Positions 1,409-15,503 of a stretch of 20,518 bases of DNA are shown piece by piece. The stretch covers positions 1 through 20,518 of IMG/VR virus record IMGVR_UViG_3300033064_003186, one strand, 5' to 3'. Below the pieces are notes generated by a model, which saw only the letters and a list, made by a program, of their open reading frames with translations, was not told the origin of the DNA and did no database searches. Every line of letters starts with the position of its first letter. The stretch's first letter is position 1. The position numbers and the translations under genes are program-made. The DNA is from a virus.

Positions 1409-3481
1409 ATGCCTCTTGCTGGGGACCCGCTGAGTTCAACTGCCGTTGAAGCCAAAAGACCTTTCATCCAAGTTCAGAACAACGCTCAACTTGATGCTCA
1501 AAAAGATCAAGAGATGAAGATGGCGGCTGCTGACAAGGCACAGCAGACTCCGGAGAAGCTTGCGCTCCTTGCTTATCTTGAGCGACTCTGGGAAGAAGCC
1601 AAAACTTACAAAGAAGAAACTGGCGTTCACGATGAGATGATCAGGAATCTTCGTCAACGAGATGGAGATTACGAGCCAGATATTATTGCCGACATAGAAG
1701 AGATCGGTGGCACAGATATTTTCCTCGGCATTACCGATGTCAAATGCAGAGCCGCTGAAGCCTGGATCAATGATGTCCTGAATGCCGACCATGACAAGCC
1801 CTGGAGTTTGTCTCCTACTCCTCTCCCTGAACTTCCCGACGAATTGAAAAACGGTATCGTAAAGGAAACGATGGATCAGGTTATTCAAAATGTTATCGAA
1901 GGCGGAGAGCCGCTTGAGATTCAGGAGATCCAAGACTTTGCCGCTGACATGAGACAGGACATTGATGACAAACTTTACGCTGAGGCACAGACTCGCGTAG
2001 GGCGGATGGAAGTTGTTATCAACGATCAGATGGTTGAAGGCAACTGGCAGAATGCTTGGGATGATTTCGTATCGAATCTTGTGACGCTGAAGTGTGGCTT
2101 CATCAAGGGTCCTGTTGTTCGAAGAAAAAAGAAAATGAATTGGGTGAAGGTGAACGGCCGGAGTAAGCCTGAGATTACGCTAGAGCTTACGGTAGAGTTT
2201 GATGCTCCGAACCCGCTGGATATTTTCGAATCAAGAGGCATGACGAACGTGGATGACGGAACGCTTATTGAGCGGATCCGTTTCACTCGACTTGCTCTCC
2301 AGCGCATGAAGGGTACGGAAGGGTACGATGATGCCGCGATAGATTTGGTGCTTCATCATTTCGGGCCGGATGGCTACACGAATTACACCGAGACGGATGA
2401 CACCAGGAAGAAGCTTGAAGAGAAGGGCTGGGATACAAAGTTCACGCCTGACTCTATCGAGGGGTTGGAGTATTGGACTTGCGTTCAGGGCGCCATGCTT
2501 ATCGATGTCGGCATGGAGAAGGATCCAGATGGAAAAGCAATCAAGCCTCTTGAAGAGTACGAGATAAATGCAATTCGTATTGGCCCCTACATTATCTATC
2601 GAGCGATCAACGATGACCCTCTTGGTAGACGTTCAATTTTCAAAAGTGGCTGGGCGAAAGTTCCTGGCTCGTTTTGGTTCAAGGGTGTTCCCGAGTTGAT
2701 GGCCGACCTTCAAAGAATTTGTAATGCCAGTATCCGGGCGCTGGTAAATAATCAGAGCATGGCCTCTGGCTCTCAGATGGTTTACTCTGACATCAGCCGA
2801 CTGCCTGCTGGCAACGACATCGAAGAATCCTACCCCGGACAGGTTCATCAGTTTACGAGTCTTGGTGCTGGGAATGAAAAACCTCTTTACACTTTGGATA
2901 TCCCATCTCATGCAACTGAGCTCATGGGGATCTATACATCTTTTGCGAATCTTGCGGATGAGTACACAGGCATACCTGCCTACGAACATGGTCAAGGGAC
3001 TCATGTTGGGGGAGCTGGCAGGACACTTGGCGGGTTATCTATGTTGATGACCAATGCAGCGCGTGGAATCAAACTTGTCATCATGCGAATTGACAAGAAC
3101 GTTCTTAGGTTAGCGATTCAAAGAACGTATGAATTCAACATGCTGTACCATCCAGACGAGACGATCAAGGGGGATGTAGAAGTTCAACCGGAGGGTATCC
3201 TTGCGCGGATAATCAAAGAACAGTTGATGCAGCGAAGGATCGAATTCTTGAACGCAACGAACAATGAGACAGACCGAAAGATCATGGGTCTTGAAGGCCG
3301 CGCAACCGTCCTGCGCGATGCGGCCAAATCACTTGACTCAAGAGCTGGCGGCGTCGTGAAGACTCCAGAACAGATCGAAGAACTCGAGGAACAGGAACAA
3401 CGGCAACAGGAACAAATGCTTCAGGTTCAAATGCAGCAGATACTTGCTGCAGGCCAGGGAGCCCCACGAACAGGAGGATAG
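1409..3481 (+). CDS. Portal (head-tail connector) protein
   Basis: This 690-residue protein is the likely portal, the dodecameric ring at one capsid vertex through which DNA is packaged and ejected. Support comes from size, from position before scaffold and capsid genes, and from a portal-like central region around residues 424-450 (FKGVPELMADLQ, then NASIRALVNNQ). That pattern recurs in large podovirus portals, where a helix packs along the DNA channel. The N-terminal 30-60 residues are hydrophilic. The C-terminus (about 650-685) is Glu/Gln-rich and should form a coiled coil, as barrel or tail segments of large portals do. AGGAG at 1398-1402 lies six bases before the ATG. The last codons contain the ribosome site (AGGAGG, 3473-3478) of the next gene, so translation is probably coupled. 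Family relationship is by pattern, not by search. Confidence 0.85.
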   Translation: MPLAGDPLSSTAVEAKRPFIQVQNNAQLDAQKDQEMKMAAADKAQQTPEKLALLAYLERLWEEAKTYKEETGVHDEMIRNLRQRDGDYEPDIIADIEEIGGTDIFLGITDVKCRAAEAWINDVLNADHDKPWSLSPTPLPELPDELKNGIVKETMDQVIQNVIEGGEPLEIQEIQDFAADMRQDIDDKLYAEAQTRVGRMEVVINDQMVEGNWQNAWDDFVSNLVTLKCGFIKGPVVRRKKKMNWVKVNGRSKPEITLELTVEFDAPNPLDIFESRGMTNVDDGTLIERIRFTRLALQRMKGTEGYDDAAIDLVLHHFGPDGYTNYTETDDTRKKLEEKGWDTKFTPDSIEGLEYWTCVQGAMLIDVGMEKDPDGKAIKPLEEYEINAIRIGPYIIYRAINDDPLGRRSIFKSGWAKVPGSFWFKGVPELMADLQRICNASIRALVNNQSMASGSQMVYSDISRLPAGNDIEESYPGQVHQFTSLGAGNEKPLYTLDIPSHATELMGIYTSFANLADEYTGIPAYEHGQGTHVGGAGRTLGGLSMLMTNAARGIKLVIMRIDKNVLRLAIQRTYEFNMLYHPDETIKGDVEVQPEGILARIIKEQLMQRRIEFLNATNNETDRKIMGLEGRATVLRDAAKSLDSRAGGVVKTPEQIEELEEQEQRQQEQMLQVQMQQILAAGQGAPRTGG

Positions 3482-3487
3482 AGCGAG

Positions 3488-4978
3488 ATGAAGATGAAAC
3501 GAATTGGACTGATGATTTTAACAGCGGTGCTTTGCATGACCGCGCCGGTTTTGGCTAACTGGCGCGAGAAGGTGGACATCGGCAATCTTCGGGTTGTGAC
3601 GTTGACCGCAAATCCGTATAAAGGGAACACGGCTATTACGGTTGAGTCTGCGATCACGTTTGAGGCGGCTATCACGATAGCGGCTGATATAGACGTGGGC
3701 GGCTATGACATTACTGGTGCTGGCGATATAGCTACTACCAGTCTTGATGTCAACTCTGTTGCGGCTACTGACTATGTTCGCATGGATCAGACGAATACAA
3801 CGGGAACATCCACAGAACCGTATATGGAGATCACTGATGCACGTACTGGCACATTTGCAGATACGGCGGCTGAGGCTTCTCTTGTCATAACTGCGGCTGG
3901 CGCATACGGGCTTGCGGTTGTTGATGGTATCGTAAACATCGAAGCTGAAATTGATTGTACTGGCGACATGACGCTTGACCCGGCTGGTGACGATCTGATT
4001 GTTGATGCTACCATTGATGCTACGGCCATTACGGTTGATGCTGGTGCTGGTATTGATGTGAAGTCTGCTGGTACGCTTGATATTGGCGTTTTAACTGCCG
4101 ATGCCGTTGACATAGGCAAAACTACCGAGATAACCACGATCAAGGGGCTTCTGAATGTAGACGAAGCGGCTACCTTTGATATTACTGTCGGTGTGACTGG
4201 AGACCTAACTGCAAGTGGAAACTTACTCGGTGACGATGCAACGGTTGTCTCCAATATTGCTACGATAGCGACAGACCTTATTGTGTCTGACGGATCGGCC
4301 CTTGCGATAGGTGATGCGTCTGAAACGATTGCCATAACCTCATCCGACTGGACGATTTCAACGTCTGGTGCGATGGCTGGAATTGGTGCGATTGGATGCG
4401 ACAGCATTGCTGTAGTGGGTGCAATATCAGCCAACGGCACGATTGCTGGCGACGACGATACTGTGGTTACTGGACTGTCGAACACAACTTGGGTTGCGGC
4501 AAGTACGTTGACCATTGGGACTGCAACTGTTGTTCCGACCTCGGCTACTGAGTTGACGATCACCGAGACCACGCTGACGCATTCCGGAACAACGCTTGGT
4601 GCGGCGGCTATTACGGCGAGTGGAACGATCACGGCTAACGGCGACATCACTGGTGATAATGACACCATCGTTTCCGGCGTAAGCAATGTCACGTTGGTTG
4701 CTGGTGCGGAACTGACAATAGACGGTAAGTACGCCGTTGTCGGTCCTGATGCAAGTAACGGGTATATGGTGCAAATGGGTGGTGGTGCAGGCGTAACGAA
4801 CGGTGCGACGATCACATATCCAACGGCCTTTTCTTCGGCCCCGATTGTCATACTTGGCTACAATATAGCAGGTTCGGCAACGAACGCTTATCCTTCGTCA
4901 GTTGGAGCGACTACGTTTGTCGTGAATGGTACGGCGGGTATAGTCCAGAACTGGGTCGCTTATGGAATCAGACCGTAA
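3488..4978 (+). CDS. Fibre-like repeat protein 1 with N-terminal signal peptide
   Basis: This 496-residue protein is dominated by short Thr/Ala/Gly/Ile/Val/Asp-rich beta repeats, typical of phage fibres and other elongated beta-structured virion proteins. It starts with a classical Sec signal: a basic n-region (MKMKR), a hydrophobic core (residues 6-17), and a Val-Leu-Ala cleavage site after residue 23. The last 65 residues or so, containing YPTAF, TNAY and a final NWVAYG, resemble receptor-binding tip domains of fibres (Gp53-like C-terminal type) and recur in fibre-like protein 3. Residues 249-305 are shared with fibre 3. The ribosome site AGGAGG (3473-3478) is inside the portal's end, nine bases from this ATG. 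Its place between portal and scaffold is unusual for a fibre. It could alternatively be a secreted adhesin or a capsid-surface fibre. The role is inferred from composition and context. Confidence 0.65.
   Translation: MKMKRIGLMILTAVLCMTAPVLANWREKVDIGNLRVVTLTANPYKGNTAITVESAITFEAAITIAADIDVGGYDITGAGDIATTSLDVNSVAATDYVRMDQTNTTGTSTEPYMEITDARTGTFADTAAEASLVITAAGAYGLAVVDGIVNIEAEIDCTGDMTLDPAGDDLIVDATIDATAITVDAGAGIDVKSAGTLDIGVLTADAVDIGKTTEITTIKGLLNVDEAATFDITVGVTGDLTASGNLLGDDATVVSNIATIATDLIVSDGSALAIGDASETIAITSSDWTISTSGAMAGIGAIGCDSIAVVGAISANGTIAGDDDTVVTGLSNTTWVAASTLTIGTATVVPTSATELTITETTLTHSGTTLGAAAITASGTITANGDITGDNDTIVSGVSNVTLVAGAELTIDGKYAVVGPDASNGYMVQMGGGAGVTNGATITYPTAFSSAPIVILGYNIAGSATNAYPSSVGATTFVVNGTAGIVQNWVAYGIRP
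4232..4402 (+). repeat. Fibre module shared with fibre-like protein 3 (copy 1)
   Basis: Residues 249-305 of fibre-like protein 1 align without gaps over 57 residues to 273-329 of fibre-like protein 3. By my count 38 of 57 positions are identical, including SNIATIATDL, AITSSDW and IGCD. The DNA differs at many synonymous positions, so the copies are not a recent duplication. Confidence 0.75.
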
Positions 4979-4991
4979 TTGAATTGATCTG

Positions 4992-5018
4992 GCTGGGGCT
5001 TCGACTTGAGGCCCCAGC
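4992..5018 (+). terminator. Strong intercistronic hairpin after fibre 1
   Basis: GCTGGGGC (4992-4999) pairs with GCCCCAGC (5011-5018). The stem extends through one T-G wobble and two more pairs to a five-base loop GACTT (5003-5007), giving 11 pairs. No T-run follows, so it fits a factor-dependent terminator, an RNA processing or stability element, or an attenuator. It begins 13 bases after the fibre 1 stop (TAA at 4976-4978) and ends 17 bases before the best start of the next gene. Confidence 0.5.
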
Positions 5019-5035
5019 TTCAGATGGGGAGAAAG

Positions 5036-5332
5036 ATGAGTCGAGACGACGAAAGATTGATAGAGAGCAAGAAGCTTTCGAAGGCACTATTAGATCTTCG
5101 TGGTGCTCCGCTTGAGTTGTACCTGGAATCTCTCGTAGAACGACTTGTCGAACAGGATGCAGAGAACAGGGTGCTGGATGGGGCGGCTCTCTATCGTGGG
5201 CAAGGGAAGTCACAGATGCTTGTTGAAATAATTTCGCAGGCTGAATCTGCCGAAGAGGTAATGGCTAAAGCTATGGCCGCAACCTCAAGGCGGGTCAGGA
5301 AACAAAAAGGGAAAAGCGGGAGACTCGGGTAA
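5036..5332 (+). CDS. Small hypothetical protein preceding the scaffold
   Basis: I do not recognise this 98-residue protein. It is charged and mostly helical in character, with a segment LYRGQGKSQMLVEII around the middle and a Lys/Arg-rich C-terminus. Small helical proteins with a similar central pattern are common beside portal and capsid genes in phages, so a minor head or assembly role is plausible but unproven. I chose the ATG at 5036 because GGGGAG (5026-5031) lies four bases upstream. The frame is open further upstream to a TTG at 5006 and an in-frame ATG at 5024, but those starts fall inside or against the hairpin and lack a ribosome site. The gene is bracketed by two hairpins, at 4992-5018 and 5347-5372. 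Confidence 0.6.
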   Translation: MSRDDERLIESKKLSKALLDLRGAPLELYLESLVERLVEQDAENRVLDGAALYRGQGKSQMLVEIISQAESAEEVMAKAMAATSRRVRKQKGKSGRLG

Positions 5333-5346
5333 TGAGCCCTGCAAAA

Positions 5347-5372
5347 TTGTGCATACCGGAAACGGCGCACAA
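5347..5372 (+). promoter_or_regulatory. Hairpin next to the scaffold ribosome site
   Basis: TTGTGC (5347-5352) pairs with GCACAA (5367-5372). An inner CCG (5356-5358) pairs with CGG (5363-5365) around a GAAA loop (5359-5362), with a small internal loop of ATA opposite C. The structure ends directly before the purine-rich ribosome site (GAGAGG, 5374-5379) of the scaffold gene. It could set scaffold translation or protect the downstream message. No T-run follows. Confidence 0.4.
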
Positions 5373-5383
5373 AGAGAGGCATG

Positions 5384-6511
5384 ATGTCATCATCATTGAC
5401 AAAAGAAGATAGACAGCAGCTTCCAGCGGCAACGCTGAAGAAGTTGGATGAGGCAGAGAAGGCGGAGAAGAAGGCGGAAGAGGAAGCGGAAGCGGCTAAG
5501 GCTGCTGTGGTAGCGGAAGAAGTTCCGGCGCCCGAAGATGCTCCTCCCCCTCCTGAAGAGAAGCCTGATGAGCCCGAAGTTGTTCCTCCTGAGGAACCCG
5601 TTGAGCCCGTTACTCCTGAGCCTGGTGCTGAGGAAGTTGTAGTGGAGACTCCCGGGAAAGAATCAGTGCAGGACCAGTTGAGGAGACTCAAAGACCTTGA
5701 AGAGGAGTTGCCTGGAACACCGTTCAAGACATTGAAGGGTAAGTATGATGCAGAGGTTCCGCGTTTGCATGAGGAGAAGAAGGTCCTCGAGGCGCAAGTG
5801 GCCGAATTACGGGCCAGGTTGACTGCTGCACCATTGGAGCCAGAGGTTCCGCCTGAATTGTCATTGCTTGATCCTGATGAGCGGGAAGCCGTTTCTGAAG
5901 AGGGCGATAGTATCGTTCTGAAACAGGCGAAGGGTGTTATAAGCGCGGCGGAGAAGAAGTTATTGGATAGAATAGAGGCTCTTGAACAGAGGTCAACGGA
6001 AACATCAAACCAGCGCCTGTCGGACGAACGTGAGTTGAGAGAGACTCAGATCATGGCGAAGGTGGAAGAAGCTCTTCCTGGTGCGGATATGATCAATAAG
6101 AGTCCTCAGTTTACTCAATGGCTTGATCAGCCGGATCCCAATAGCATGACGGGGGCGACCTACGGTGCTAGAGGGGCTGATGTGTTATACCGCGGTGACG
6201 TTAAGGGGATAGAGGCAATTCTAAGAGAGGGTGCTGCAGCCATTGGGTTAAAACTTGATGGTGTTGAAGATGGTGAGCCGGCTCGGGTTCCGCCCATTAA
6301 GCCGGCAAAGCAGAGTGCAAGTGCGCCTCCGTCACAAACTGAAAAGAAAATGGTCAAAGAGAGTACGGTCTTGAAGTTTTTCAATGACCAAAATGCTCCC
6401 GGTGGCCTTCGACATAACGATGGAACAGCCTGGACTCAGGATGAGATCAGGGCGAAGGAAAAAGAATTCGATCAGGCAGAGGATGAAGGCAGAATACTTC
6501 AGGGGAAGTAG
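5384..6511 (+). CDS. Capsid scaffolding protein
   Basis: This protein of about 375 residues is very acidic and lies directly before the major capsid gene, where scaffolds are encoded. The first third is Ala/Glu/Lys coiled coil, then a Pro/Glu/Val-rich low-complexity stretch (about 45-95). Long charged helices follow around 105-145 and 180-230. The C-terminus (about 320-375) is Lys-rich then mixed, where scaffolds usually bind coat protein. The scaffold would guide coat subunits into a prohead and then leave. There are two adjacent ATGs, at 5381 and 5384. I prefer 5384 because GAGAGG ends at 5379, only one base before the first but four before the second. No protease gene is seen nearby and no protease motif is visible in this protein. 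Confidence 0.75.
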   Translation: MSSSLTKEDRQQLPAATLKKLDEAEKAEKKAEEEAEAAKAAVVAEEVPAPEDAPPPPEEKPDEPEVVPPEEPVEPVTPEPGAEEVVVETPGKESVQDQLRRLKDLEEELPGTPFKTLKGKYDAEVPRLHEEKKVLEAQVAELRARLTAAPLEPEVPPELSLLDPDEREAVSEEGDSIVLKQAKGVISAAEKKLLDRIEALEQRSTETSNQRLSDERELRETQIMAKVEEALPGADMINKSPQFTQWLDQPDPNSMTGATYGARGADVLYRGDVKGIEAILREGAAAIGLKLDGVEDGEPARVPPIKPAKQSASAPPSQTEKKMVKESTVLKFFNDQNAPGGLRHNDGTAWTQDEIRAKEKEFDQAEDEGRILQGK

Positions 6512-6555
6512 GCTGTGTTTTTGATTTCCTGGTCATAACATAAGGAGGATGACTA

Positions 6556-7494
6556 ATGAGTTATCCAACAGCAGCTGGATTCAGAGATATTGGCTCCAGC
6601 GACATGAAAATGATCCCGACCATTTACAGTGCTAAATGGCTTGTAAAGTTCTACAGGCGTACTGTGTTTGGAGCGATCTCGAACCATGACCATGAACAGG
6701 AAATCAAGAACCACGGTGATACCGTTGAGATTCGGGCAATCCCCGACGTCACTTCGCGTACCTACCGCAAGGGCCAGGTCCTGAATTACGAACAGCCGAC
6801 ATCTTCGGCTACTCAGCTCCTTATTGATCAAGGTCAGTATTGGGCGTTCGTGACGAATAAGGTTGATGATGTTCAGACAGATATGAAGGACTACATCAGC
6901 AAGTGGGGCGATGACGCAATGAAGCAGACGCAGATAGCTATTGACTTAGCTGTTCTGGGTAACGTCTACTCTGATGCAAGTTCCACGAACAAGGGTTCAG
7001 CGGCCGGTGCGGTTACTGGCAATATCAACCTGGGTGTTGATGGCGGAGTTAGTGTTCTTCTTTCGAACTCCGACGTCCTGGATAAGATCGTACAGTGTGG
7101 ACAGGCTCTTACTGAGAACAACATCCCTGAAGAGGGACGTTGGATGGTTATCCCGGCGTGGATGGCTACTCTCATTTCTACCAGTGACCTGAAAGATGCG
7201 TCCCTGGCTGGCGATGATACTTCGATCATACGGAATGGTCGTCTGGGTAAGATAGCGACATTCACCCTCTACCAGAGCAACCAGCTCTCTACAGGTGCGG
7301 ACAGTTCCGCGAATACCTGTACCCGAATTCTGTTCGGTACGAACCACGCGATCACGTTTGCGACTCAGATCACAGAGAATGAGCATCTGACGAACCCGAA
7401 TGACTTCGGGATGTTGCACCGTGGCCTCCAGGTTTACGGTTACAAGGTTGTGAAACCGACAGCGCTTGGTGTGCTGTTTGCTTATGCGGCGTAA
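6556..7494 (+). CDS. Major capsid protein (HK97 fold)
   Basis: This 312-residue protein should form the icosahedral shell. It follows the scaffold and has the strongest ribosome site in the head region (AAGGAGG, 6542-6548), as expected for the most abundant product. The segment at residues 22-70 (SAKWLVKFYRRTVFGAI, then KNHGDTVEIRAIPDV) is the pattern seen at the start of many HK97-fold coat proteins of phages with no long N-terminal delta domain, and residues 50-85 fit the E-loop region. The middle (about 165-205) carries a helix then WMVIPAWMATLI, typical of the A-domain core. The C-terminus (LHRGLQVYGYKVVKPTALGV) is a typical coat ending. An intercistronic hairpin follows at 7504-7535. Confidence 0.87.
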   Translation: MSYPTAAGFRDIGSSDMKMIPTIYSAKWLVKFYRRTVFGAISNHDHEQEIKNHGDTVEIRAIPDVTSRTYRKGQVLNYEQPTSSATQLLIDQGQYWAFVTNKVDDVQTDMKDYISKWGDDAMKQTQIAIDLAVLGNVYSDASSTNKGSAAGAVTGNINLGVDGGVSVLLSNSDVLDKIVQCGQALTENNIPEEGRWMVIPAWMATLISTSDLKDASLAGDDTSIIRNGRLGKIATFTLYQSNQLSTGADSSANTCTRILFGTNHAITFATQITENEHLTNPNDFGMLHRGLQVYGYKVVKPTALGVLFAYAA

Positions 7495-7503
7495 TTAAGT
7501 AGT

Positions 7504-7535
7504 GTGTGGGCTTAGGTAGATCCCTGAGCCCATGC
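7504..7535 (+). terminator. Intercistronic hairpin after the capsid gene
   Basis: A 13-pair stem with three G-T wobbles has the core TGGGCTTAGG (7507-7516) pairing with CCTGAGCCCA (7523-7532) around the loop TAGATC. It begins ten bases after the capsid stop. No T-run follows, but a purine-rich tract leading to the next ribosome site does. It may stabilise the capsid message or partly terminate it so that capsid protein is made in excess. Confidence 0.5.
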
Positions 7536-7569
7536 CTCTGAAGAAAGAAAAGAGAAGGGGATAAGAAAG

Positions 7570-7998
7570 ATGACAACTGATAGTACATATATCAAAACGG
7601 GAAGCCCTGGCGTTGGTGGCCGAGTGGTTCCGATTCTTAACCAGTTTGTAGTGAACTTTGCGACTACGAATGGTGTTGCTGACACCATCTATCCGATCTT
7701 CCAGTGCCCAGAGGACTATGTGGTTCTCAGTGCTGGGTATGAGATTCTGATCGCTGGTACGGCGTCTGGGACGTTGGACCTTGGTAAGGCCGGAGGCACG
7801 GAGTTGCTTTCTGCTGTTGCTATCGATGCGGCAGTTGGGACGAAGGCACAGGGCGCTATGGCTGCTCCAGTGTTCTTCTCGGATAGCGATTCGATTGATA
7901 TGCAGGTCGCGGCTGCTACGCCCGTGCTTGGCAAGATGCGACTCTGGTGGGTTGGCATTGATGTTTCGGAATTGAACATCATCAATGACTTTGCATAG
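7570..7998 (+). CDS. Small capsid-associated protein (decoration or head fibre candidate)
   Basis: This 142-residue protein is beta-rich and small-residue-rich, with few charges. It starts MTTDSTYIKTGSPGVGG and has a core alternating hydrophobic and small residues (for example APVFFSDSDSIDMQV). I do not recognise a named domain. Lying directly after the major capsid gene, with its own ribosome site (AGAAGGGG, 7553-7560), it is in the slot commonly used for decoration or head-stabilising proteins. No signal peptide or membrane segment is visible. It could equally be a small tail or fibre-associated protein. A strong hairpin follows it. Confidence 0.6.
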   Translation: MTTDSTYIKTGSPGVGGRVVPILNQFVVNFATTNGVADTIYPIFQCPEDYVVLSAGYEILIAGTASGTLDLGKAGGTELLSAVAIDAAVGTKAQGAMAAPVFFSDSDSIDMQVAAATPVLGKMRLWWVGIDVSELNIINDFA

Positions 7999-8020
7999 CC
8001 TGTAAAGTAGACTGATTTAA

Positions 8021-8050
8021 TGCCCCGGGCGGTTTCGACCGCCTGGGGTA
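8021..8050 (+). terminator. Very stable TTCG-loop hairpin ending the head-gene block
   Basis: CCCCGGGCGGT (8023-8033) pairs with ACCGCCTGGGG (8038-8048) across a TTCG loop, with one G-T wobble. T8021-A8050 and a G-T pair extend it to 13 pairs. It lies 22 bases past the stop at 7998 and opens a 196-base gap, so it is the best candidate for a transcript end. There is no T-run immediately 3', so intrinsic termination is uncertain and RNA stabilisation is an alternative. Confidence 0.5.
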
Positions 8051-8194
8051 AGTCTCTATCTGGAGTTGCCCCTTGAATTGTTACAGAAGCATATTATCTT
8101 TTTCCCTCTCCTGTTCTTTTCCGCATTCCCATTTTGATTTTGAGTGTAAGCCTATTTTGAATGAATCCGTATGTGCTAATGGAGGAGCCGAATA
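8051..8194 (+). promoter_or_regulatory. Leader region of fibre 2, pyrimidine-rich
   Basis: This is the second long gap in the window. It holds TATTAT at 8092-8097 (5 of 6 match to a -10 box) but no -35 box at a proper distance. A pyrimidine tract (about 8098-8130) contains TTTCCGC (8118-8124) then CCCATT (8128-8133). The same two words, in the same order, lie upstream of the portal at 1362-1368 and 1375-1380. The ribosome site GGAGGAG is at 8181-8187. A promoter is plausible but I cannot define it. Confidence 0.3.
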
Positions 8195-10045
8195 ATGAAG
8201 AAGCTTTGTTTAATTTTGTCAATGATCCTGCTGTGTTCAGTAGTGGGTTATGGAGCTGATGGTTATGCTGATGGTCAGAAGACGATAAGCTCTTTCGTCA
8301 TTACTGGCGATATTGATATGAATGGCTTTGGTATTACTGATGTTGATGACATTACCGGCGATGGTACTGGTAGCATCACGAACTTCTTGAACGTGTGGGC
8401 TACTACAGACTTCTATGAGGGGGGTGTTGCGCTGGATACGAAGTATGTTCTGCTGACAGATGTAAACTACCTCGGCGCATTGACGAACGGTGTTGTAGCC
8501 GCTGGTGATGCATGGGCCGGGACAAAGGCTGGCAGAATATGGACCATGACCTATCCCACAAACAACTCAGCGTTTACGAATGACTCATTGTTCTTGGATG
8601 CGACTGCGGCAGATTTGCTGTATCTTGGAATCTTAGCTAAGGCCGCTGACTCCGACAAACTGGACAACATAGATTCAACAGGCTTTTATCGGATCACAGG
8701 CGATACGCTGGAAGGCGACATTGTCGGCGGCTACTACAACCTCACCAACGTCAACAACGGAACCTTCACGAACGGAATGTTTTGGGGAAATCTGGATTTG
8801 TTTGGGGCCAACACAAAGTACCTCACGCTGACAGACGATATCGAAGCGGAAGTTGCGGCGGCAACGGCTGGCGATACTCTCGTTCTGGCAAAGGGAACCT
8901 ACACGGTTACAGATGACATCGATATCGACAAGGCGATCACCATCGACATGAACGGTGCGACCATTGCCTGTGCTACCGACGCGAAGTACATCTTCCATAT
9001 CGTAGCAGATGACGTGACTGTTAAGAACGGCTTGTTCAGTATCAACGCCTCTGGAACTTACCCCGCGTTTGCGGATGGCTCTGCCGGAGCTGTGTTTGAC
9101 AACGTGAACTTCGAGAACATTACCGCCACCTTCACGGCACACTCTGGAGACCAACGAGGTTTCCAGTACTACGATGCTGGTGGGTATCTGCGGGATATAG
9201 TAATAAAGGGTTTGCAATCAACGGACCTCCGGTGCAGAGGGGTCTATATGGCAAACCTTGCTTCGGCTGAAGCCGCGACAAAGATAGACTGTTACAATGT
9301 AGTTGTTGAGCAGGCTGTAGCCGCTGGCGTGTTAAGTCATGCGTTCAGCGTCTTGGATAGCTCTGCTTCTCAGGATGCCACTTTGAACCTTTACAACTGT
9401 AAGGGCGTGGCCACTGACGCTACTGGTGATTCCTATGGAGCCTCCGCCACTGGCTCAGATGCGATCTTGAACATCTACGGCGGTACATTCAGCGGTGGTA
9501 GTTACGATGTAGCGGCCCTCAGTTCTGGAGTGCCGACAATCTACTCGTCAACGCTTGTCAACGGAACTACGGTGGGAACGGTGACATCTGTCGGCGAGTT
9601 CAATGCGGCTTCATTCCATGCAAACAATTCTCTCTGTGAGGCTGACTTCAACGACGGAGCATCACAGGACTTCAGTGCCGCAGGATACACCCACATAACA
9701 AACTTCGAGATTAACGTCTGTCATGCGATTTATACGTCCACAGAAAGCAATGCAACGGTTTCTGTCGCTGGCTGGTACAATGCGTATATGATGCTTTCGT
9801 GGAAATCATCTAGTGCGGCAAATGTGGCTTGCCACATGTTTACGAATGGTGTGAATGCTGTTACTGCGTCTGGAAATCTATTAGGATGGGATGCGTCTAC
9901 AACGGTTACAGCAAACAGTCAGCAAGCATCGTTTACGAAGCATATTTACCTGACCGCTGGAACTGTTGTTGATTGGAGAATACAAACGGGAGCTAATGAA
10001 ACTCTCACTTGGAATCATGGAACCGTGGGATTGGAATTGAAGTAA
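8195..10045 (+). CDS. Fibre-like protein 2: signal peptide, beta-helix, C-terminal jelly-roll-like domain
   Basis: This protein has 616 residues. Residues 1-20 or 21 form a Sec-type signal peptide: MKK, a hydrophobic core, and a Gly-Tyr-Gly-Ala cleavage region. Residues 25-200 are Asp/Gly/Thr-rich beta repeats with words such as TGDIDMNGFGITDVDD. From about 205 the pattern AEVAAATAGDTLVLAKGTY then VTDDIDIDKAITIDMNGA is the classic entry into a pectin-lyase-type parallel beta-helix, running to about 460. The last 145 residues or so alternate strands with NVACHMFTNG and NETLTWNHGTVGLEL, resembling a C1q/TNF-like jelly roll. This build is typical of tail spikes or depolymerases that bind or cut surface polysaccharide. 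No catalytic residues can be assigned by eye. It stands alone between head genes and the membrane-protein block. Confidence 0.68.
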   Translation: MKKLCLILSMILLCSVVGYGADGYADGQKTISSFVITGDIDMNGFGITDVDDITGDGTGSITNFLNVWATTDFYEGGVALDTKYVLLTDVNYLGALTNGVVAAGDAWAGTKAGRIWTMTYPTNNSAFTNDSLFLDATAADLLYLGILAKAADSDKLDNIDSTGFYRITGDTLEGDIVGGYYNLTNVNNGTFTNGMFWGNLDLFGANTKYLTLTDDIEAEVAAATAGDTLVLAKGTYTVTDDIDIDKAITIDMNGATIACATDAKYIFHIVADDVTVKNGLFSINASGTYPAFADGSAGAVFDNVNFENITATFTAHSGDQRGFQYYDAGGYLRDIVIKGLQSTDLRCRGVYMANLASAEAATKIDCYNVVVEQAVAAGVLSHAFSVLDSSASQDATLNLYNCKGVATDATGDSYGASATGSDAILNIYGGTFSGGSYDVAALSSGVPTIYSSTLVNGTTVGTVTSVGEFNAASFHANNSLCEADFNDGASQDFSAAGYTHITNFEINVCHAIYTSTESNATVSVAGWYNAYMMLSWKSSSAANVACHMFTNGVNAVTASGNLLGWDASTTVTANSQQASFTKHIYLTAGTVVDWRIQTGANETLTWNHGTVGLELK

Positions 10046-10064
10046 TGAGAAACGGGGAGTCTCG

Positions 10065-10187
10065 ATGAGCGAGAAGCCGGAAAGAACGGGATGGCTCTGG
10101 ACGGCCATAGTGATCTTTGGTTTGGCACTGATTATTCTGGTGGCTTCGGGTATTACAGCATTGGTAGCGGCAACGACTGGGGGATGA
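10065..10187 (+). CDS. 40-residue single-pass membrane protein (holin-like candidate)
   Basis: This short ORF starts at ATG 10065 after GGGGAG (10054-10059, spacing five). It encodes a charged head (MSEKPERTG) followed by one long hydrophobic helix (residues 10-36) and a Thr-Thr-Gly-Gly end. Its TGA overlaps the next ATG as ATGA, the coupling seen elsewhere in this window. Size and topology fit a small holin, pinholin or other lysis accessory protein, and it begins a block containing a second membrane protein and a PLA2-like protein. The function is inferred only from these facts. It is easily missed because a longer reading frame overlaps it. Confidence 0.6.
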   Translation: MSEKPERTGWLWTAIVIFGLALIILVASGITALVAATTGG

Positions 10188-10654
10188 TGATGGACAAGGA
10201 AAAATCAGAGATGCAGAAGGTTCTTGGTGACAAGCTTAAAGATGAAATCAAAGAATCAGATGCCGCCGTCAAGGACATGAAGGATCGAGAGAAAAGCTGG
10301 GATGAGTCAAGGCCGATTGTGGCTGATGGTCTTGGGCTTGTGAGTCATCGTGATGCTGTAACTCATGCTGGTCTTCAGGACGTTACCAAAGAACTTGGAA
10401 AGCTTGCTGACGTTGTGATACAGAACAATGGCCATGTGGCAACGGTGAATGTTCCATTTTTAGGCCCTGCCCCCGTCAAGTATGTTGTTGCGGTTATTAT
10501 GACGGCCTTGGCCTTGGGGACCTATGGTATTGTCGAGATAGTTAAGGCAGGGAGGTTTAATGAATTTGCTGAAGGGATAAACGATCTCCGGGGAAAGCCA
10601 ACGGCGTCAATGGGTGCTGAGACAGCAGAAGGAATTGCAAAGATAGATGAATAG
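10184..10654 (+). CDS. Coiled-coil protein with one membrane segment
   Basis: This is a 156-residue protein. Residues 1-40 are densely charged, Lys/Glu/Asp-rich coiled coil. Residues 60-82 form a second amphipathic helix. One hydrophobic segment spans about 98-120 (VKYVVAVIMTALALGTYG), followed by a hydrophilic tail. Three Met codons in a row (10184, 10187, 10190) offer starts. The first overlaps the previous stop, and GGGG at 10180-10183 best serves the third. The frame is open upstream to an ATG at 10091, but that start would overlap most of the 40-residue gene and has no ribosome site. The role is unknown. Candidates are a holin or antiholin partner, a spanin-like linker, or a membrane-bound anchor for the next gene's product. 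Confidence 0.65.
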   Translation: MMMDKEKSEMQKVLGDKLKDEIKESDAAVKDMKDREKSWDESRPIVADGLGLVSHRDAVTHAGLQDVTKELGKLADVVIQNNGHVATVNVPFLGPAPVKYVVAVIMTALALGTYGIVEIVKAGRFNEFAEGINDLRGKPTASMGAETAEGIAKIDE

Positions 10655-11096
10655 AGAACCCATAGCAGTGTCGCTACAAAGAGAGCGTGATGAGTATCTC
10701 AAGATGCAACTCTCGATTCAGTTGTTTCAGCCAAGCGAGGTGGTTAAGACAGCGATCCTTGAGGCGTACCATGATCCCAATTGGCCCTGGCAGAAAAGCG
10801 ACGGGTGTACGGGCGTCAGTGAGATATATTTCCCGAAAGGCTTTAAGTTTCCTCCGTGCGTTATGCACGATCACAAGTGCCATTTGGCTTCCCTGGCAAA
10901 GACTCGCAAAGAGAGGAACGTTCTTCGACTGGAAGGCGACAATCTTCTTTACTTGGCAAACCGCGATTATGGCGTATCGAGGATCCGGAGCAAGGCTCGA
11001 TGGCTTGGTGTCCGAATATATTGGAATTTCTGGGGTAGGTGGAAGTCCTTGAAAAGTGGCGTTCATTCTGGTAGAGATTGTTGTCGAGGCCTATAG
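10647..11096 (+). CDS. Phospholipase A2-like (DGCTG / C-x-x-HD) small protein
   Basis: This is a 149-residue protein. Asp-Gly-Cys-Thr-Gly at 52-56 is followed by PPCVMHDHKC at 69-78, with His74-Asp75, then Asp98 in RLEGDNLLYL. The order of a DGC-Ser/Thr-G loop, a Cys-x-x-His-Asp pair, a later Asp, and a C-terminal aromatic stretch (GVRIYWNFWGRW, 121-132) matches a family of small phage and bacterial proteins. These resemble phospholipase A2, where the His-Asp pair activates water and DGCxG resembles the calcium loop. If active it would cut membrane phospholipids. It overlaps the previous gene by eight bases and follows two membrane proteins, a lysis-like context. AAGGA at 10629-10633 is too far for a good ribosome site, so translation is probably coupled. 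No signal peptide is seen. Activity is inferred, and a structural role is possible. Confidence 0.55.
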   Translation: MNREPIAVSLQRERDEYLKMQLSIQLFQPSEVVKTAILEAYHDPNWPWQKSDGCTGVSEIYFPKGFKFPPCVMHDHKCHLASLAKTRKERNVLRLEGDNLLYLANRDYGVSRIRSKARWLGVRIYWNFWGRWKSLKSGVHSGRDCCRGL

Positions 11097-11122
11097 TGGG
11101 CAAAATATAAGGAGAGATGAGC

Positions 11123-11569
11123 ATGAGCGGTAAAGTCATATATCTGAGAAAACAGGGAACGAATGAGACTATGGCGGTATTTCAGGGAGCACCTATCCTT
11201 GAGAACCCTTCGGTTGTCCAGATTGACCTGAAGGAGCATGAGGCGTGTATTGCCGAACGGCGCAAAGCTTCAGAGGCTGATCGCATGGCCAAGAAAGAAG
11301 GATTTTCCAGCGTTGCTGATAAGGCTCATGCCGCTGTTGTAGAGAAGAACCAGGCGAGGAAGCCGGCGAAGGTCAAGCGTGTGCCTTCCAAGGACAGTGA
11401 GGAAGATATGGCGGCTAAAGCTGCTGTAGCAGAAGAGAAGGCCAAAGCCAAGGCAGAGGCCGATGAAAAGAAGGCGGCAAAGAAAGCCGAAGCTGAGAAG
11501 GTCAAGGCCGAGAAAAAAGCCAAAGCTGATGCAGCCAAAGCAGCCAAAGCCGCAAAGAAAAAGAAATAG
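11123..11569 (+). CDS. Phage protein with histone H1-like Lys/Ala tail
   Basis: This 148-residue protein has two parts. Residues 3-43 form a compact domain (GKVIYLRKQGTN, then AVF and PIL) that is clearly related to residues 26-67 of the next gene's product. From about 95 to the end the protein is almost pure Lys/Ala/Glu, ending KKAKADAAKAAKAAKKKK, like histone H1 or TolA-type helices, and it probably binds DNA or forms a long charged helix. The ATG at 11123 is preferred because AAGGAG (11109-11114) lies eight bases before it. The in-frame ATG at 11117 is only two bases from that site. Proteins with such N-terminal domains often precede head-tail adaptor genes in phages. The exact role is unknown. 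Confidence 0.6.
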   Translation: MSGKVIYLRKQGTNETMAVFQGAPILENPSVVQIDLKEHEACIAERRKASEADRMAKKEGFSSVADKAHAAVVEKNQARKPAKVKRVPSKDSEEDMAAKAAVAEEKAKAKAEADEKKAAKKAEAEKVKAEKKAKADAAKAAKAAKKKK

Positions 11570-11583
11570 AAAGGGCGTGTACA

Positions 11584-12051
11584 ATGGAAGAACTGAAACA
11601 GGTTGGTGATCTTCGGATTGCTACAGAGGATGATAACCCGTTTGCCGTGAGGAAGATCGGCAAGCTTATTCATTACGTTCAGAAAAAGGGAACGAACGTA
11701 AGCCATGCTGTATTCTCGAATGCGGCTATCCTGGATCGAGTTAATGGATTCGGCCTTCAGGAAATCAAGGATATGGAATTCATCTCTGAAGCCCAGCACC
11801 AAAAGAACATTGGTATTGTGACAGCAGAGGGGAAGTCTACGGTTTTGGCCAAGGCGAACGCTGGTCCTGATGCCGATGCTGATGCAGCGAAAGGGGATCC
11901 GTTCCCCGAAGATTGGCAGAAGCTGACGAAGAAAAAGCTTCTGGCGCTTGTGACCCTCCAAGACCTCGATGTGGACTTGAAGGGAACCAAGGTACAGCTC
12001 ATTGAAAGAATAGAAGCCTGTAGGGAAGGTAAGCCGGCTCCTACAGCCTAA
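11584..12051 (+). CDS. Paralogue of preceding gene with C-terminal SAP/HeH-like domain
   Basis: This 155-residue protein opens with a short lead, then residues 26-67 (GKLIHYVQKKGTN, AVF, AIL) matching the domain at the start of the previous protein. A flexible Ala/Asp-rich linker (about 92-105) leads to residues 114-146 (LTKKKLLALVTLQD, then GTKVQLIERIEA). This fits the helix-extension-helix pattern of SAP or HeH/LEM-like domains, which bind DNA or act as small docking modules. AAAGGG (11570-11575) is eight bases before the ATG. The two genes look like a tandem duplication whose tails diverged, one H1-like and one SAP-like. Position before the adaptor gene suggests a virion or packaging-linked role. 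Confidence in the SAP call is moderate because the domain is short. Confidence 0.62.
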   Translation: MEELKQVGDLRIATEDDNPFAVRKIGKLIHYVQKKGTNVSHAVFSNAAILDRVNGFGLQEIKDMEFISEAQHQKNIGIVTAEGKSTVLAKANAGPDADADAAKGDPFPEDWQKLTKKKLLALVTLQDLDVDLKGTKVQLIERIEACREGKPAPTA

Positions 12052-12071
12052 AGAACCAGGGAGTACCAACA

Positions 12072-12425
12072 ATGTCAACTGTCGCAAATGCCATTACGCG
12101 CATAAGAGAGCAGATCAAGGACGATGTAGCCAATGCTTCTGACCAATATCGTTGGGATGATGATCTTCTTATTCGGCTGATAAACGATGGGATATATGAC
12201 ATTGTTGGTACTCACCCTGAAGCAAGCTATCTCGCCTCGATCTCAGTAGCTGATCCTGTGCGTGTCACAGCCGTTGCTGACGATCTTCCCATCACGGACT
12301 ACTATCTTACCTCTCTGGTAGACTTCGTGGCCGGTAGGGTGCTTCTGGAGGATTCTGAGGACGCTGGAAACCTTGTTCTGAGTAACGAGCACAAGGATCT
12401 CTCTGGCGAGAGCAAGGAGCAATAA
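12072..12425 (+). CDS. Head-tail adaptor protein
   Basis: This is a 117-residue, mainly helical protein. It has the pattern of small phage adaptor proteins (DUF6682-like): an N-terminal helix, then YRWDDDLLIRLINDGIYDIV around residues 26-45, a Pro containing turn (GTHPEASY), a short beta part, and a C-terminal helix (TSLVDFVAGRVLLEDSEDAG). Such proteins dock to the portal ring and receive the tail. AGGGAG (12058-12063) is eight bases upstream of the ATG. The stop overlaps the next start as TAATG. The family label is from memory of the pattern, not from a search. Confidence 0.65.
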   Translation: MSTVANAITRIREQIKDDVANASDQYRWDDDLLIRLINDGIYDIVGTHPEASYLASISVADPVRVTAVADDLPITDYYLTSLVDFVAGRVLLEDSEDAGNLVLSNEHKDLSGESKEQ

Positions 12426-13027
12426 TGAGTAATACGACAACTTTCATCACGATGTACGATCAACTGATGCCTGAACTCCCCAAATGCCCTCAGGCCTTGA
12501 TTGATAAGCATACCCGGAACGTATGGATCAAGTTCTGCCATGAGACCCAAGCGTGGACTTATGATCTTACTGCTATAAACATTCGTGATGGCGTTCAAGA
12601 GTATCGGCTGGATGGTCTGCAGCCTAGTTATTCTCAGATAGATACCTTGGTGACTGTGACCAGGGAAGATGTTGTCATTGAACCTGGGACTGGATACACG
12701 ATGGCCAATAGGCAGATGTCTATCTGGCTTGAGGATGAGCCAAGCGCTGACGTTACGGCCGGCTTAGAGATTCAGGTAGCGTTACGTCCGACAAGATCAG
12801 CGACATACATTGAGACTCGCCTGTATGAAGATTGGGAAGAACAGGTTGCCAAGGGGATTCTGTCTGTTCTGATGAAGATGCCGGGTAAGTCGTGGTCGGA
12901 CAAGACCATGGGGAATCGGTATGACCGTGAATTTAGAGATACGATAGCGAAAGCACGAATTCAGCAGACCCGCGGTGGCATGAACAAGAGGACGGCGGCC
13001 CGGGCTCCAAGAGCGTACCGATGGTAG
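12425..13027 (+). CDS. Tail connector protein (tail tubular A-like)
   Basis: This 200-residue protein starts with MYDQLMPELPKCPQALID and KFCHETQAWTYDLT (about residues 10-45), a pattern common in short-tail connector proteins encoded just after the small adaptor. A beta-rich middle (about 50-125) holds EYRLDG and IQVALRPT. A helical end (YEDWEEQVAKGILSVLMKMPG, 140-158, then a basic tail ending RAYRW) follows. Its place, one gene after the adaptor and a few before the nozzle, fits the T7 gp11-like tail tube slot. The ribosome site AAGGAG (12414-12419) lies inside the previous gene. A different connector role cannot be excluded. Confidence 0.6.
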   Translation: MSNTTTFITMYDQLMPELPKCPQALIDKHTRNVWIKFCHETQAWTYDLTAINIRDGVQEYRLDGLQPSYSQIDTLVTVTREDVVIEPGTGYTMANRQMSIWLEDEPSADVTAGLEIQVALRPTRSATYIETRLYEDWEEQVAKGILSVLMKMPGKSWSDKTMGNRYDREFRDTIAKARIQQTRGGMNKRTAARAPRAYRW

Positions 13028-13037
13028 GAGGAGATTA

Positions 13038-13403
13038 ATGAACCCTTTGATTGTGTACAGTGATGATGACAGACCCTCGATCTGGTTTCAGATAATCAAT
13101 GATGATGGTGTGGTGGATCTTTCGGATGCCGATACCGTTGTAACGTGGAAGTTCCGGGCGGCAGAAACGGAGTCTGTCCTTTCGACGGGAACCTGCACAA
13201 AGGTCAAGGGTGATGGAGTAACTGGTTGGGTTCAGATGGACTGGGGAAGCACCGACCTGGATGATCTTGATGGCGGAAGCTACGAGATCGAGATATCTAT
13301 TTCGTTTGACGGCTCTATACAGACGGTGAATTGGTTTTATCATCTTAATGATATTTCTGATATTGAAGAGACAATGCCTGTGCTGGTCAAGGAGGATTTC
13401 TAA
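13038..13403 (+). CDS. Small beta-sandwich structural protein (BppU-N-like)
   Basis: This 121-residue protein is acidic and beta-rich. It begins with IVYSDDDRPSIWFQI, then DLSDADTVVTWKFRA (about residues 27-41), later GWVQMDWGSTDLDDLDGGSY and EIEISISFDG. This order resembles the N-terminal domain of phage baseplate-upper proteins (DUF2479/BppU) and other Ig-like phage modules that anchor fibres. It may dock a fibre to the tail, since fibre-like protein 3 is encoded two genes later. The ribosome site AGGAGGAG (13026-13033) overlaps the previous stop and is four bases from the ATG. The functional call is inference. Confidence 0.55.
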   Translation: MNPLIVYSDDDRPSIWFQIINDDGVVDLSDADTVVTWKFRAAETESVLSTGTCTKVKGDGVTGWVQMDWGSTDLDDLDGGSYEIEISISFDGSIQTVNWFYHLNDISDIEETMPVLVKEDF

Positions 13404-13759
13404 TGAGTGATCTGCGAGGCCTCAGAGCCGCATGGACAATAAAATCGGAGGACGTGAACGTGAGCACAACATTTACCATAGCCCTTACCACGGTGACGGC
13501 TTCCAGGATAGACGCCTTAATAACGATTGGCGGATCTGCGAGATATCTTGTGGACTTCTGGCTTGTCGATGCAATTTCTGATCCAAATCTTCGAACCGTG
13601 GATCCTCCGAGCGGGAATCAGGAGGTCGAGTGGTCAAAGGTAACGGCGGCAGATGGGACATATACGCATAGTGTTATTAATGTGACTGCCGGCAAGACTT
13701 GGTACTTGGTGGCGATCTGGGGTGGTCGATACGTTGTCAGCGCTGCAATCAGCTTCTAA
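13403..13759 (+). CDS. Small beta-rich hypothetical virion protein
   Basis: I do not recognise this 118-residue protein. It is beta-rich, with short strands such as TFTIALTTVTASRIDALITIGG and a C-terminal TWYLVAIWGGRYVV. It has no membrane segment or signal peptide. Its ATG overlaps the previous stop (TAATG at 13401-13405), and AAGGAGG (13389-13395) sits seven bases upstream, so both genes are co-translated. Placed between an Ig-like protein and a fibre-like gene, it is probably a minor tail or fibre-attachment protein. Confidence 0.5.
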   Translation: MSDLRGLRAAWTIKSEDVNVSTTFTIALTTVTASRIDALITIGGSARYLVDFWLVDAISDPNLRTVDPPSGNQEVEWSKVTAADGTYTHSVINVTAGKTWYLVAIWGGRYVVSAAISF

Positions 13760-13772
13760 GGAGAATAAGGAC

Positions 13773-15503
13773 ATGAGAAAACATATCGCAATACTGACTG
13801 TGCTCCTCATGGGGGCTTCTGTGTTTGGTGCGTCTCCGTGGCCATCGAGTGATGTTTACCCGAGGATGTTTGGTACGAACAAGACAGACACGGTGATGAA
13901 TACAGCGCTCACGGCCATAGGGACCAGGGTGTGCCGAGTGATTGTGGATGGTGGGACTTGGACGATATCCAACAATGTCACCTTCCCAACAAATACTCAT
14001 GTTTACATTGCGGCCGGCTCAAAGCTGAGTATCGCCAACGGCAAGATCGTTACGTTTAATGGCGGGTTTGATGCTGGGGCTTATGACGTTTTCGATGGTA
14101 CGGGGGTAACTGCTGGCTCTCCCAAGATGATGTATCGTCTTGTTGAGTGGGGGAGTGCGACCACGTATCCGATGGGGGTAGGTGCGACAGATGATCTTCT
14201 TGCCAGCAATAAGACCGTTTCTGGTGTATGGCTGATAACGAATGCGGCCAGTAGCTTCGGTGGTGTGCTTGGGGCGAACATTCCAGACCTTACCGCGGCA
14301 GAGATCGTCTCTGGTGCTTGGGTTCATTCTGCGAATCTTTCTCTGGATGATGGGGTGGGTGATTCTCCTTCGTTCATTTTACAGGATGCCGACAATAAGA
14401 CGTTTACGATAGCGAAACTGGATGCCGGAAATACCACGTTTACCTCTACAGAGGGTGACTTCCTGTTCACTCCATATGGTGATGACTTCCTTCTGGATGG
14501 TGGTCTTACCGTGGGGAGTGCTACTGAGGCCGGTGATAATAATCTGCGGGTAGAGGGTGATGGGACGTTCAACGGGAATATACTTGGAGATGATGCTACG
14601 ATTATTTCGAACATAGCGACAATCGCCACGGATCTTCTTGTGTCGGATGGAGCTGCCTTGACGATTGGATACAGTGCAGATACGACAGCTATCACATCTT
14701 CTGACTGGGCAATAGGCGCAACTGGTATAGCGTCCGGACTTGGGACAATTGGGTGCGATGGGAACATTACGCTGACCGCCGCAAGTGGGGATGCGACGAT
14801 TTCCTCTATTGGCGCTTCCAGTCAGGATGGCATGGTTCTTTTGGATGCTGATGCCGGGGGTGATAATGCAGATAGCTGGTGGATGATCTCTCGGGCTTCC
14901 GACAATTACTTTGTCCTGGCGAACCATACAACGACGAATCTGACCGTTACGGCGACAGGAAATGGGACGATTACCGGAGATTGGGATATCGATGGGAATG
15001 ACCTGACATCTCCGGCAGACCTGACGATCACGCCGGCCGGAAATGAGGTTCTGATTGATGGTGGGTTGAACGTGGGTGGGACAACGCAGCCTGGAGATAA
15101 CAATCTTAGGGTTGAAGGGACTTCGGCCTTTGTCGGGGCTGGTACGGCTACGGCTGACTTCACGTTTAACGGTGGGATTATTGGTGATCAGGCGACAGAC
15201 ATCACGTTGGTTGATGAGGCGACATTCGTTGATCTTACTGTTACGAATTCACCATCGTTTGTGTCTCGTTATGCGCTTTTGAGCAAGGATACTTCTACTC
15301 AGTATGCGACTGAGCATGGAACGTGTACGAACCTTCAGGCCGTAAGCTTTACGACTGCGTTTGCTGTGGCTCCCCAGATATTCCTGACGTATCAGGCGGC
15401 TGCAACTACGAATGCTTATGCAACGTCAATAACGGTCAATGGGTTTACGGCTGGCGGAGAACTGGTGAAGTCTATGGCATGGTACGCTATCGGTCAGAAA
15501 TAG
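13773..15503 (+). CDS. Fibre-like repeat protein 3 with signal peptide
   Basis: This is a 576-residue protein. I start at ATG 13773, after AAGGAG (13758-13763) and a second TAAGG (13766-13770), giving an N-terminus MRKHIAILTVLLMG that is a clear Sec signal with a Val-Phe-Gly-Ala cleavage region at 17-20. An upstream in-frame ATG at 13722 would bury the signal inside a longer protein and overlap the previous gene. Residues 40-110 look like the start of a spike or fibre stalk. A repeated 37-residue unit follows (232-268 and 419-455), and residues 273-329 match fibre-like protein 1. The last 60 residues (TTAFAVAPQIFLTYQ, TNAY, final WYAIG) match the tip of fibre 1. This probably forms a trimeric fibre with a receptor-binding tip. 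Confidence 0.68.
   Translation: MRKHIAILTVLLMGASVFGASPWPSSDVYPRMFGTNKTDTVMNTALTAIGTRVCRVIVDGGTWTISNNVTFPTNTHVYIAAGSKLSIANGKIVTFNGGFDAGAYDVFDGTGVTAGSPKMMYRLVEWGSATTYPMGVGATDDLLASNKTVSGVWLITNAASSFGGVLGANIPDLTAAEIVSGAWVHSANLSLDDGVGDSPSFILQDADNKTFTIAKLDAGNTTFTSTEGDFLFTPYGDDFLLDGGLTVGSATEAGDNNLRVEGDGTFNGNILGDDATIISNIATIATDLLVSDGAALTIGYSADTTAITSSDWAIGATGIASGLGTIGCDGNITLTAASGDATISSIGASSQDGMVLLDADAGGDNADSWWMISRASDNYFVLANHTTTNLTVTATGNGTITGDWDIDGNDLTSPADLTITPAGNEVLIDGGLNVGGTTQPGDNNLRVEGTSAFVGAGTATADFTFNGGIIGDQATDITLVDEATFVDLTVTNSPSFVSRYALLSKDTSTQYATEHGTCTNLQAVSFTTAFAVAPQIFLTYQAAATTNAYATSITVNGFTAGGELVKSMAWYAIGQK
14466..14576 (+). repeat. Internal 37-residue repeat of fibre 3 (copy 1)
   Basis: Residues 232-268 contain LDGGLTVG and AGDNNLRVEG. 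The second copy is residues 419-455 (15027-15137), with IDGGLNVG and PGDNNLRVEG. By my count 22 of 37 positions are identical with no gap. Confidence 0.75.
14589..14759 (+). repeat. Fibre module shared with fibre-like protein 1 (copy 2)
   Basis: Residues 273-329 of fibre 3 match residues 249-305 of fibre 1 (4232-4402) over 57 positions without gaps, with divergent synonymous codons. Confidence 0.75.
15027..15137 (+). repeat. Internal 37-residue repeat of fibre 3 (copy 2)
   Basis: Residues 419-455, partner of the copy at 14466-14576. The shared core GDNNLRVEG is identical. The unit resembles a repeating stalk element. Confidence 0.75.

Follow-up and report, generated by a model that had tools for sequence, protein, structure and literature searches.

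Predicted signal peptides on three fibre-like proteins of the window

The IMG/VR record IMGVR_UViG_3300033064_003186 is complete at 20,518 bases and was analysed over its whole length (hereafter the window). It holds a short-tailed phage's structural half, with a portal gene (phrog_332), a scaffold-like gene, the gene for the major capsid protein (phrog_267), tail genes (phrog_399 and phrog_437) and a phrog_511 gene. Among these lie the genes of three fibre-like proteins with predicted export signals. The one at 3488 follows the portal gene (slot A), the one at 8195 comes behind the capsid gene and a decoration-like gene (slot B), and the one at 13773 immediately precedes phrog_511 (slot C):

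3488..4978, + strand: fibre A (P0001), 496 amino acids; signal peptide 1-23, anchor-like motif NWREKVDIGNLRV, repeat shaft, C-terminal H-lectin/gp53-like tip
3488..3556, + strand: predicted Sec/signal peptidase I signal peptide of fibre A, residues 1-23, cut between VLA and NW
8195..10045, + strand: fibre B (P0002), 616 amino acids; signal peptide 1-20, weak NosD-type beta-helix match at 217-290, C1q/TNF-like knob at 477-616
8195..8254, + strand: predicted signal peptide of fibre B, residues 1-20, cut between GYG and AD
13773..15503, + strand: fibre C (P0003), 576 amino acids; signal peptide 1-19, tailspike-body domain, shaft, H-lectin-like tip
13773..13829, + strand: predicted signal peptide of fibre C, residues 1-19, cut between VFG and AS

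All three N-termini are of the canonical Sec/signal peptidase I type, with a basic n-region, a hydrophobic h-region and a small-residue -3/-1 site, and the -3/-1 rule places the likely cuts between A23 and N24 in P0001, G20 and A21 in P0002, and G19 and A20 in P0003. The coordinates and residues given in a preliminary description of the window (VLA at 21-23, GYGA at 18-21 and VFGA at 17-20, respectively) were correct. A rule-based detector scoring a basic n-region, a hydrophobic core and a -3/-1 site called all three flagged proteins and 0/20 other window genes. When the first 40 residues were shuffled, the pattern arose in 206 of 6000 trials (about 3%), and shuffling of the mature part gave it in 51 of 6000. 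Applied to 32 E. coli genes, the detector called three genuine signals (CirA, MepS and YejA) and also three inner-membrane proteins, so that it does not by itself discriminate between signal peptides and signal anchors, and the support for cleavage therefore lies in the conservation of the site in relatives. Shine-Dalgarno scores were 6, 5 and 5 at the first ATG of P0001, P0002 and P0003, and at most 2 at every downstream in-frame start; a GTG at 13722 that would lengthen the third open reading frame lacks a Shine-Dalgarno site, and the alignment of orthologues begins with the first residue encoded from 13773. An artefact of start choice was ruled out by the Shine-Dalgarno sites at the right ATG. 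Judged by their sequences, the N-terminal signals are real.

Conservation in a clade of uncultured phages

Direct homologue searches with the fibre proteins returned no matches, and relatives were therefore sought through the capsid protein, which led to about 120 contigs. In 18 distinct phages, the window included, the gene directly 3' of the portal gene encodes a fibre-like protein of 140-590 amino acids with an N-terminal signal peptide; in L011 its site, between GYG and W, was missed by the strict form of the rule. In L088/L089 and in L092 the portal gene is directly followed by the next conserved gene, and the slot A-type protein has moved upstream of the portal gene with its signal kept, that of L092 with a Tat-like (twin-arginine) RR in the signal. 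Counting the 18 proteins after the portal and the two that moved, all 20 slot A proteins carry a signal peptide and then a common anchor-like motif. The motif lies directly after the predicted cut and has the rough form R/Y-E-x-[YLF]-[ST]-[IV]-x-x-L-[RK]-V; the remaining sequence and the tip vary. Outgroups gave no precedent for a slot A gene after the portal.

At the boundary between signal and motif the -3/-1 rule held in 20/20 slot A proteins, with A or G at -1 in every one, and one position upstream it held in none. This count overstates the statistics, because the boundary was placed by eye, with a possible offset of one residue against the motif, and the h-region itself agrees with the rule at 15-50% of its positions. 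The uncharged stretch averages 16 residues and the signal 23. Homologues whose start lies beyond the hydrophobic segment, named beforehand as grounds for rejecting the signals, were absent from nearly the whole set. The candidate exception is L097:8620-9585, a slot B protein of 321 amino acids without a signal peptide that starts, with M-ARHEELSIGQL, where mature slot A proteins begin (hmmsearch E 0.58 for the link to slot A). A DNA-pattern scan for the anchor motif without a signal peptide returned only the contig of L097 itself, and the same scan for the motif with a signal peptide returned nothing.

For slot C, patterns taken from mature P0003 led to seven loci with the same gene order, two of them already in the set, and the gene carries a signal peptide in 7/7. 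Together with slot A (20/20), this shows the signal to be kept in homologues. The window's phrog_511 protein is about 30% identical to the head-closure/virion protein of Bcep22-like phages, and in those phages three to four tail fibre genes precede the head-closure gene (PMC9144972). In PEp14 the slot C position is occupied by a cellulase, an exopolysaccharide (EPS) depolymerase and a fibre, all without a signal. From the phrog_511 homology and this gene order, slot C is a tail-fibre locus whose occupants in the clade bear predicted export signals. Two genes before slot C, the proteins of L170:2022-2630 and L168:2019-2627 match E1_FCCH (7e-13 and 1e-13) and, weakly, an endosialidase beta-barrel family, which hints at a fibre-linked domain.

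In a non-redundant set of fibre-like proteins defined by a composition filter, signals were called in 36/43 proteins of the clade versus 3/77 in capsid relatives outside it (Fisher p 4e-20, a test that treats related sequences as independent), and one of the three outside cases, in L089, actually belongs to the clade. Among the seven clade proteins failing the strict rule, four are signal-like by eye (two in L005, one at 18641 in L086 and one in L090), that at 8667 in L087 is doubtful and two are without a signal. In a tree of the major capsid protein the genomes with signals are confined to one region. Complete or near-complete outgroup genomes, Roseobacter CRP-345, Rhizobium RHph_TM3_14A and ctYwJ313 had no fibre signals, with one possible exception (G011), and capsid relatives have fibres without a signal in the same locus. 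The detector called no fibre-like protein in T7 or P22, and its sole such call in lambda was Lom, a known outer-membrane protein. The premise that phage fibres normally lack signals thus holds for the fibres of capsid relatives and for the known phages checked. Predicted signals on nearly all fibre and spike proteins are a trait of this clade of uncultured short-tailed phages. No large fibre candidate without a signal was seen in G002, of 58 kb.

Fibre modules and neighbouring genes

Structure models were poor overall (mean predicted local distance difference test (pLDDT) score 44 and 40), and for this reason only their C-terminal domains were used. The C-terminus of P0001 was modelled as an H-type lectin fold, with Z 8.9 to 4mtm (the tip of tail fibre gp53 of Acinetobacter phage AP22) over 77 residues and 7.6-8.6 to R-pyocin fibres; its sequence match was below the Pfam cut-off. 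That of P0002 was modelled as a C1q/TNF-like knob, best matched by the phi812 central spike (Z 12.6), and its NosD beta-helix match was far below the cut-off. The body of P0003 matches the interior of the Enterobacter phage Arya tailspike (NC_031048 gp15) with 41% identity over 64 amino acids (E 8e-4), and its tip gave only a weak H_lectin match. P0001 and P0003 have a 90-amino-acid module in common (57% identity), and a signal-bearing protein of 981 amino acids in L086 matches two PHROG tail-fibre families (5e-14 and 7e-13). The mature parts are thus phage fibre modules, with a receptor-binding tip or a trimerising knob of known fold. At their mature N-termini, slot A proteins have the short conserved motif, and P0003 is missing the N-terminal part that Arya has. 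No C-terminal membrane anchor or sorting domain was matched in the three proteins in Pfam or NCBIfam, and an autotransporter or sorting-domain adhesin was rejected on that ground; a defence or exclusion protein was rejected as none of the three had a PADLOC match.

The neighbouring genes of the window include the following:

1409..3481, + strand: portal protein, phrog_332, directly 5' of fibre A
6556..7494, + strand: major capsid protein, phrog_267, the query for finding relatives
7570..7998, + strand: possible decoration protein, gene 3' of the capsid gene, kept in the clade, without a signal peptide
13038..13403, + strand: 121-amino-acid protein without a signal peptide, conserved just 5' of fibre C; may be a virion-side adaptor
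13403..13759, + strand: 118-amino-acid protein without a signal peptide, directly 5' of fibre C and in the same position in relatives; may be an adaptor
15515..17548, + strand: phrog_511 'internal virion protein', homologue of the Bcep22-like podovirus head-closure/virion protein
18141..18887, + strand: 248-amino-acid beta-rich protein without a signal peptide, the only fibre-like window protein lacking one; candidate virion adhesin

The best cultured capsid matches are phages outside the Bcep22-like group, for example Rhizobium RHph_TM3_14A (43%), and a host scan of genome contigs gave only two distant contigs of metagenome-assembled genomes (42-43%). The window showed no excess of promoters or terminators and no Rfam family. 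The gap 5' of fibre B contains a GC-rich inverted repeat, CCCCGGGCGGTTTCGACCGCCTGGGG (8023-8048), with no T run, and 10647-11096 encodes a DUF1353-like protein (E 0.022, below the cut-off; phrog_1158 2.6e-6) with a CVMHDHKCH motif.

Other signal-bearing proteins were seen in capsid relatives. Directly 3' of the capsid gene, L021:8678-9025, L031:2771-3118, L032:7808-8155, L016:4214-4537, L073, L074, L076 and L078 encode a protein of 107-124 amino acids (107-115 in the first four) with a signal; it is unrelated to the fibres, has paired cysteines (AHECEECDNPGKPHYHAMFF) and belongs to another branch of the tree. Signal-bearing proteins of about 120 amino acids, possibly single jelly rolls, sit 3' of the capsid gene or of a giant protein (L085:6371-6727, L091:4368-4718, L088:11435-11794, G002 36500-36865 and G001 63708-64079). 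Small proteins with twin-arginine signals (TIGR01409, at or above the cut-off) are encoded 5' of structural genes at L005:462-818 and L009:2082-2426. L132-L136 (G001, 101 kb) combine the structural module of the clade with a tape-measure-like gene near 90 kb, and may be a chimaeric assembly or two phages.

Possible fates of the fibres and comparison with known systems

Sec export and cleavage by signal peptidase I are implied by the signals. On sequence grounds export of the tail fibres is well supported, and export as such, whatever its purpose, is in our view probable, which suggests that the clade sends host-recognition proteins into the cell envelope. It is the route that is unusual; the modules are ordinary fibre modules. 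Textbook assembly of tailed phages is cytoplasmic. In the open-access literature searched, where absence is not proof, we found no case of a signal peptide on a tail fibre, a spike or a virion structural protein, in agreement with the earlier remark that no ordinary known phage system explains these proteins.

Tentatively, and with less than even confidence, we favour, narrowly over a non-virion role, the reading that P0001-P0003, in a Bcep22-like clade of short-tailed phages, are receptor-binding fibres or spikes that remain virion fibres despite their Sec signals and dock at lysis. They would be made in the cytoplasm late in infection, pass SecYEG and be cut by the host signal peptidase I at the small residues of the -3/-1 site. 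Folding into trimers would follow in the periplasm, the host being diderm if the mean signal length of 23 is a guide. Particles assembled in the cytoplasm would meet them only once lysis mixes the compartments, and docking might use the short N-terminal segment bared by cleavage, the companions without a signal peptide (13038 and 13403), or both. The signals, the conserved cleavage context, the fibre modules and the fibre locus can be read directly from the genes, and it is export, cleavage, trimerisation and docking that we infer. Docking is favoured by the locus, by how many of these proteins a genome encodes, by the common mature N-terminal motif, by the lack of a large signal-free fibre candidate in G002 and, weakly, by the L097 protein, which lacks a signal and starts exactly at that motif. 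That a whole lineage exports its fibres and spikes for processing by signal peptidase, attaches them to capsids only at lysis and so splits virion assembly over two compartments is rather doubtful.

Several points weigh against docking. We know of no tailed phage that exports its fibres and then docks them as described; the link between L097 and slot A is weak at the E value given above; P0003 lacks about 250 N-terminal residues of the Arya tailspike, where binding to the particle would be expected; and small fibre-like proteins without a signal remain (window 18141 and G002 27530, the latter of 192 amino acids) that could be the real virion adhesins. The last two points would also be accounted for if the signal-bearing proteins were non-virion adhesins or decoys, exported to bind host glycans or receptors at the periplasm or surface, where they would block re-adsorption of sister phages, keep progeny off debris or modify the envelope. 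Lectin-like or knob tips, and signals throughout, suit such a role. T5 offers a precedent in Llp, a phage-encoded periplasmic lipoprotein that blocks the receptor FhuA (PMC9586334), and mass spectrometry of JC1 virions did not list the three annotated tail fibres of the slot C-type locus (PMC9144972). Decoys are nevertheless a possibility we regard with some doubt, since several of the proteins are encoded per genome, although a single decoy would suffice, their place is the tail-fibre locus, capsid relatives keep fibres without a signal at that locus, and no outer-membrane anchor or sorting domain was matched.

It is unlikely that the proteins are not exported at all, the hydrophobic N-terminus being retained as a virion anchor or membrane-active segment or removed by another, cytoplasmic protease. 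The detector does not distinguish signal peptides from short anchors, and Sec-independent N-terminal processing is annotated for lambda gpB and P22 gp7, but the detector calls neither of these; moreover, an uncharged stretch of 16 residues on average is short for a membrane anchor, and the small residue at -1 in every slot A protein, with the rule failing one position upstream, speaks for a genuine cleavage site. Chance or artefact, through wrong start codons or hydrophobic coding noise, can practically be discarded, as the preliminary description had held: any single N-terminus may be hydrophobic, and some shuffled ones pass, but the pattern is rare in shuffles, recurs in 20 proteins of slot A and 8 of slot C, follows Shine-Dalgarno sites at the right ATG and is exclusive to fibre-type genes in the window.

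A clade whose whole fibre set is routed to Sec would either assemble its virions in two compartments or spend receptor-binding modules outside the infected cell, and in both cases fibre genes from uncultured phages call for a different interpretation. A signal peptide on a phage fibre need not be an annotation error and can characterise a lineage.

Among known phages, the locus most resembles that of Bcep22-like podoviruses (the Lessievirus phages Bcep22 and JC1; also PEp14, PBC5 and POI1126), which have a homologous phrog_511 protein with fibre or depolymerase genes just before it and, compared with G001 and G002, genomes of about 55-61 kb and a giant protein downstream; however, those genes of PEp14 that were checked at the locus all lack a signal peptide, and identity is only about 30%. 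AP22 gp53, R-type pyocin fibres and H-type lectins are like the C-terminal tip of P0001 in fold, but only about 77 residues are common and the proteins of the clade bear signal peptides. In the Arya tailspike the domain found in P0003 starts near residue 254, behind an N-terminal part, whereas in P0003 it follows the signal peptide. The trimeric autotransporter adhesins of some prophages are exported and trimeric, as is proposed here for the three fibres, and also have a repeat shaft and a tip, but the window proteins have no matched membrane anchor domain and their genes lie in a structural operon. Finally, exclusion lipoproteins of the T5 Llp/Cor type are phage-encoded, exported and act at host receptors (PMC9586334), and clade proteins acting as decoys would be functionally alike though unrelated, as the Llp/Cor-type proteins are small lipoproteins without fibre modules, encoded outside the tail-fibre locus.

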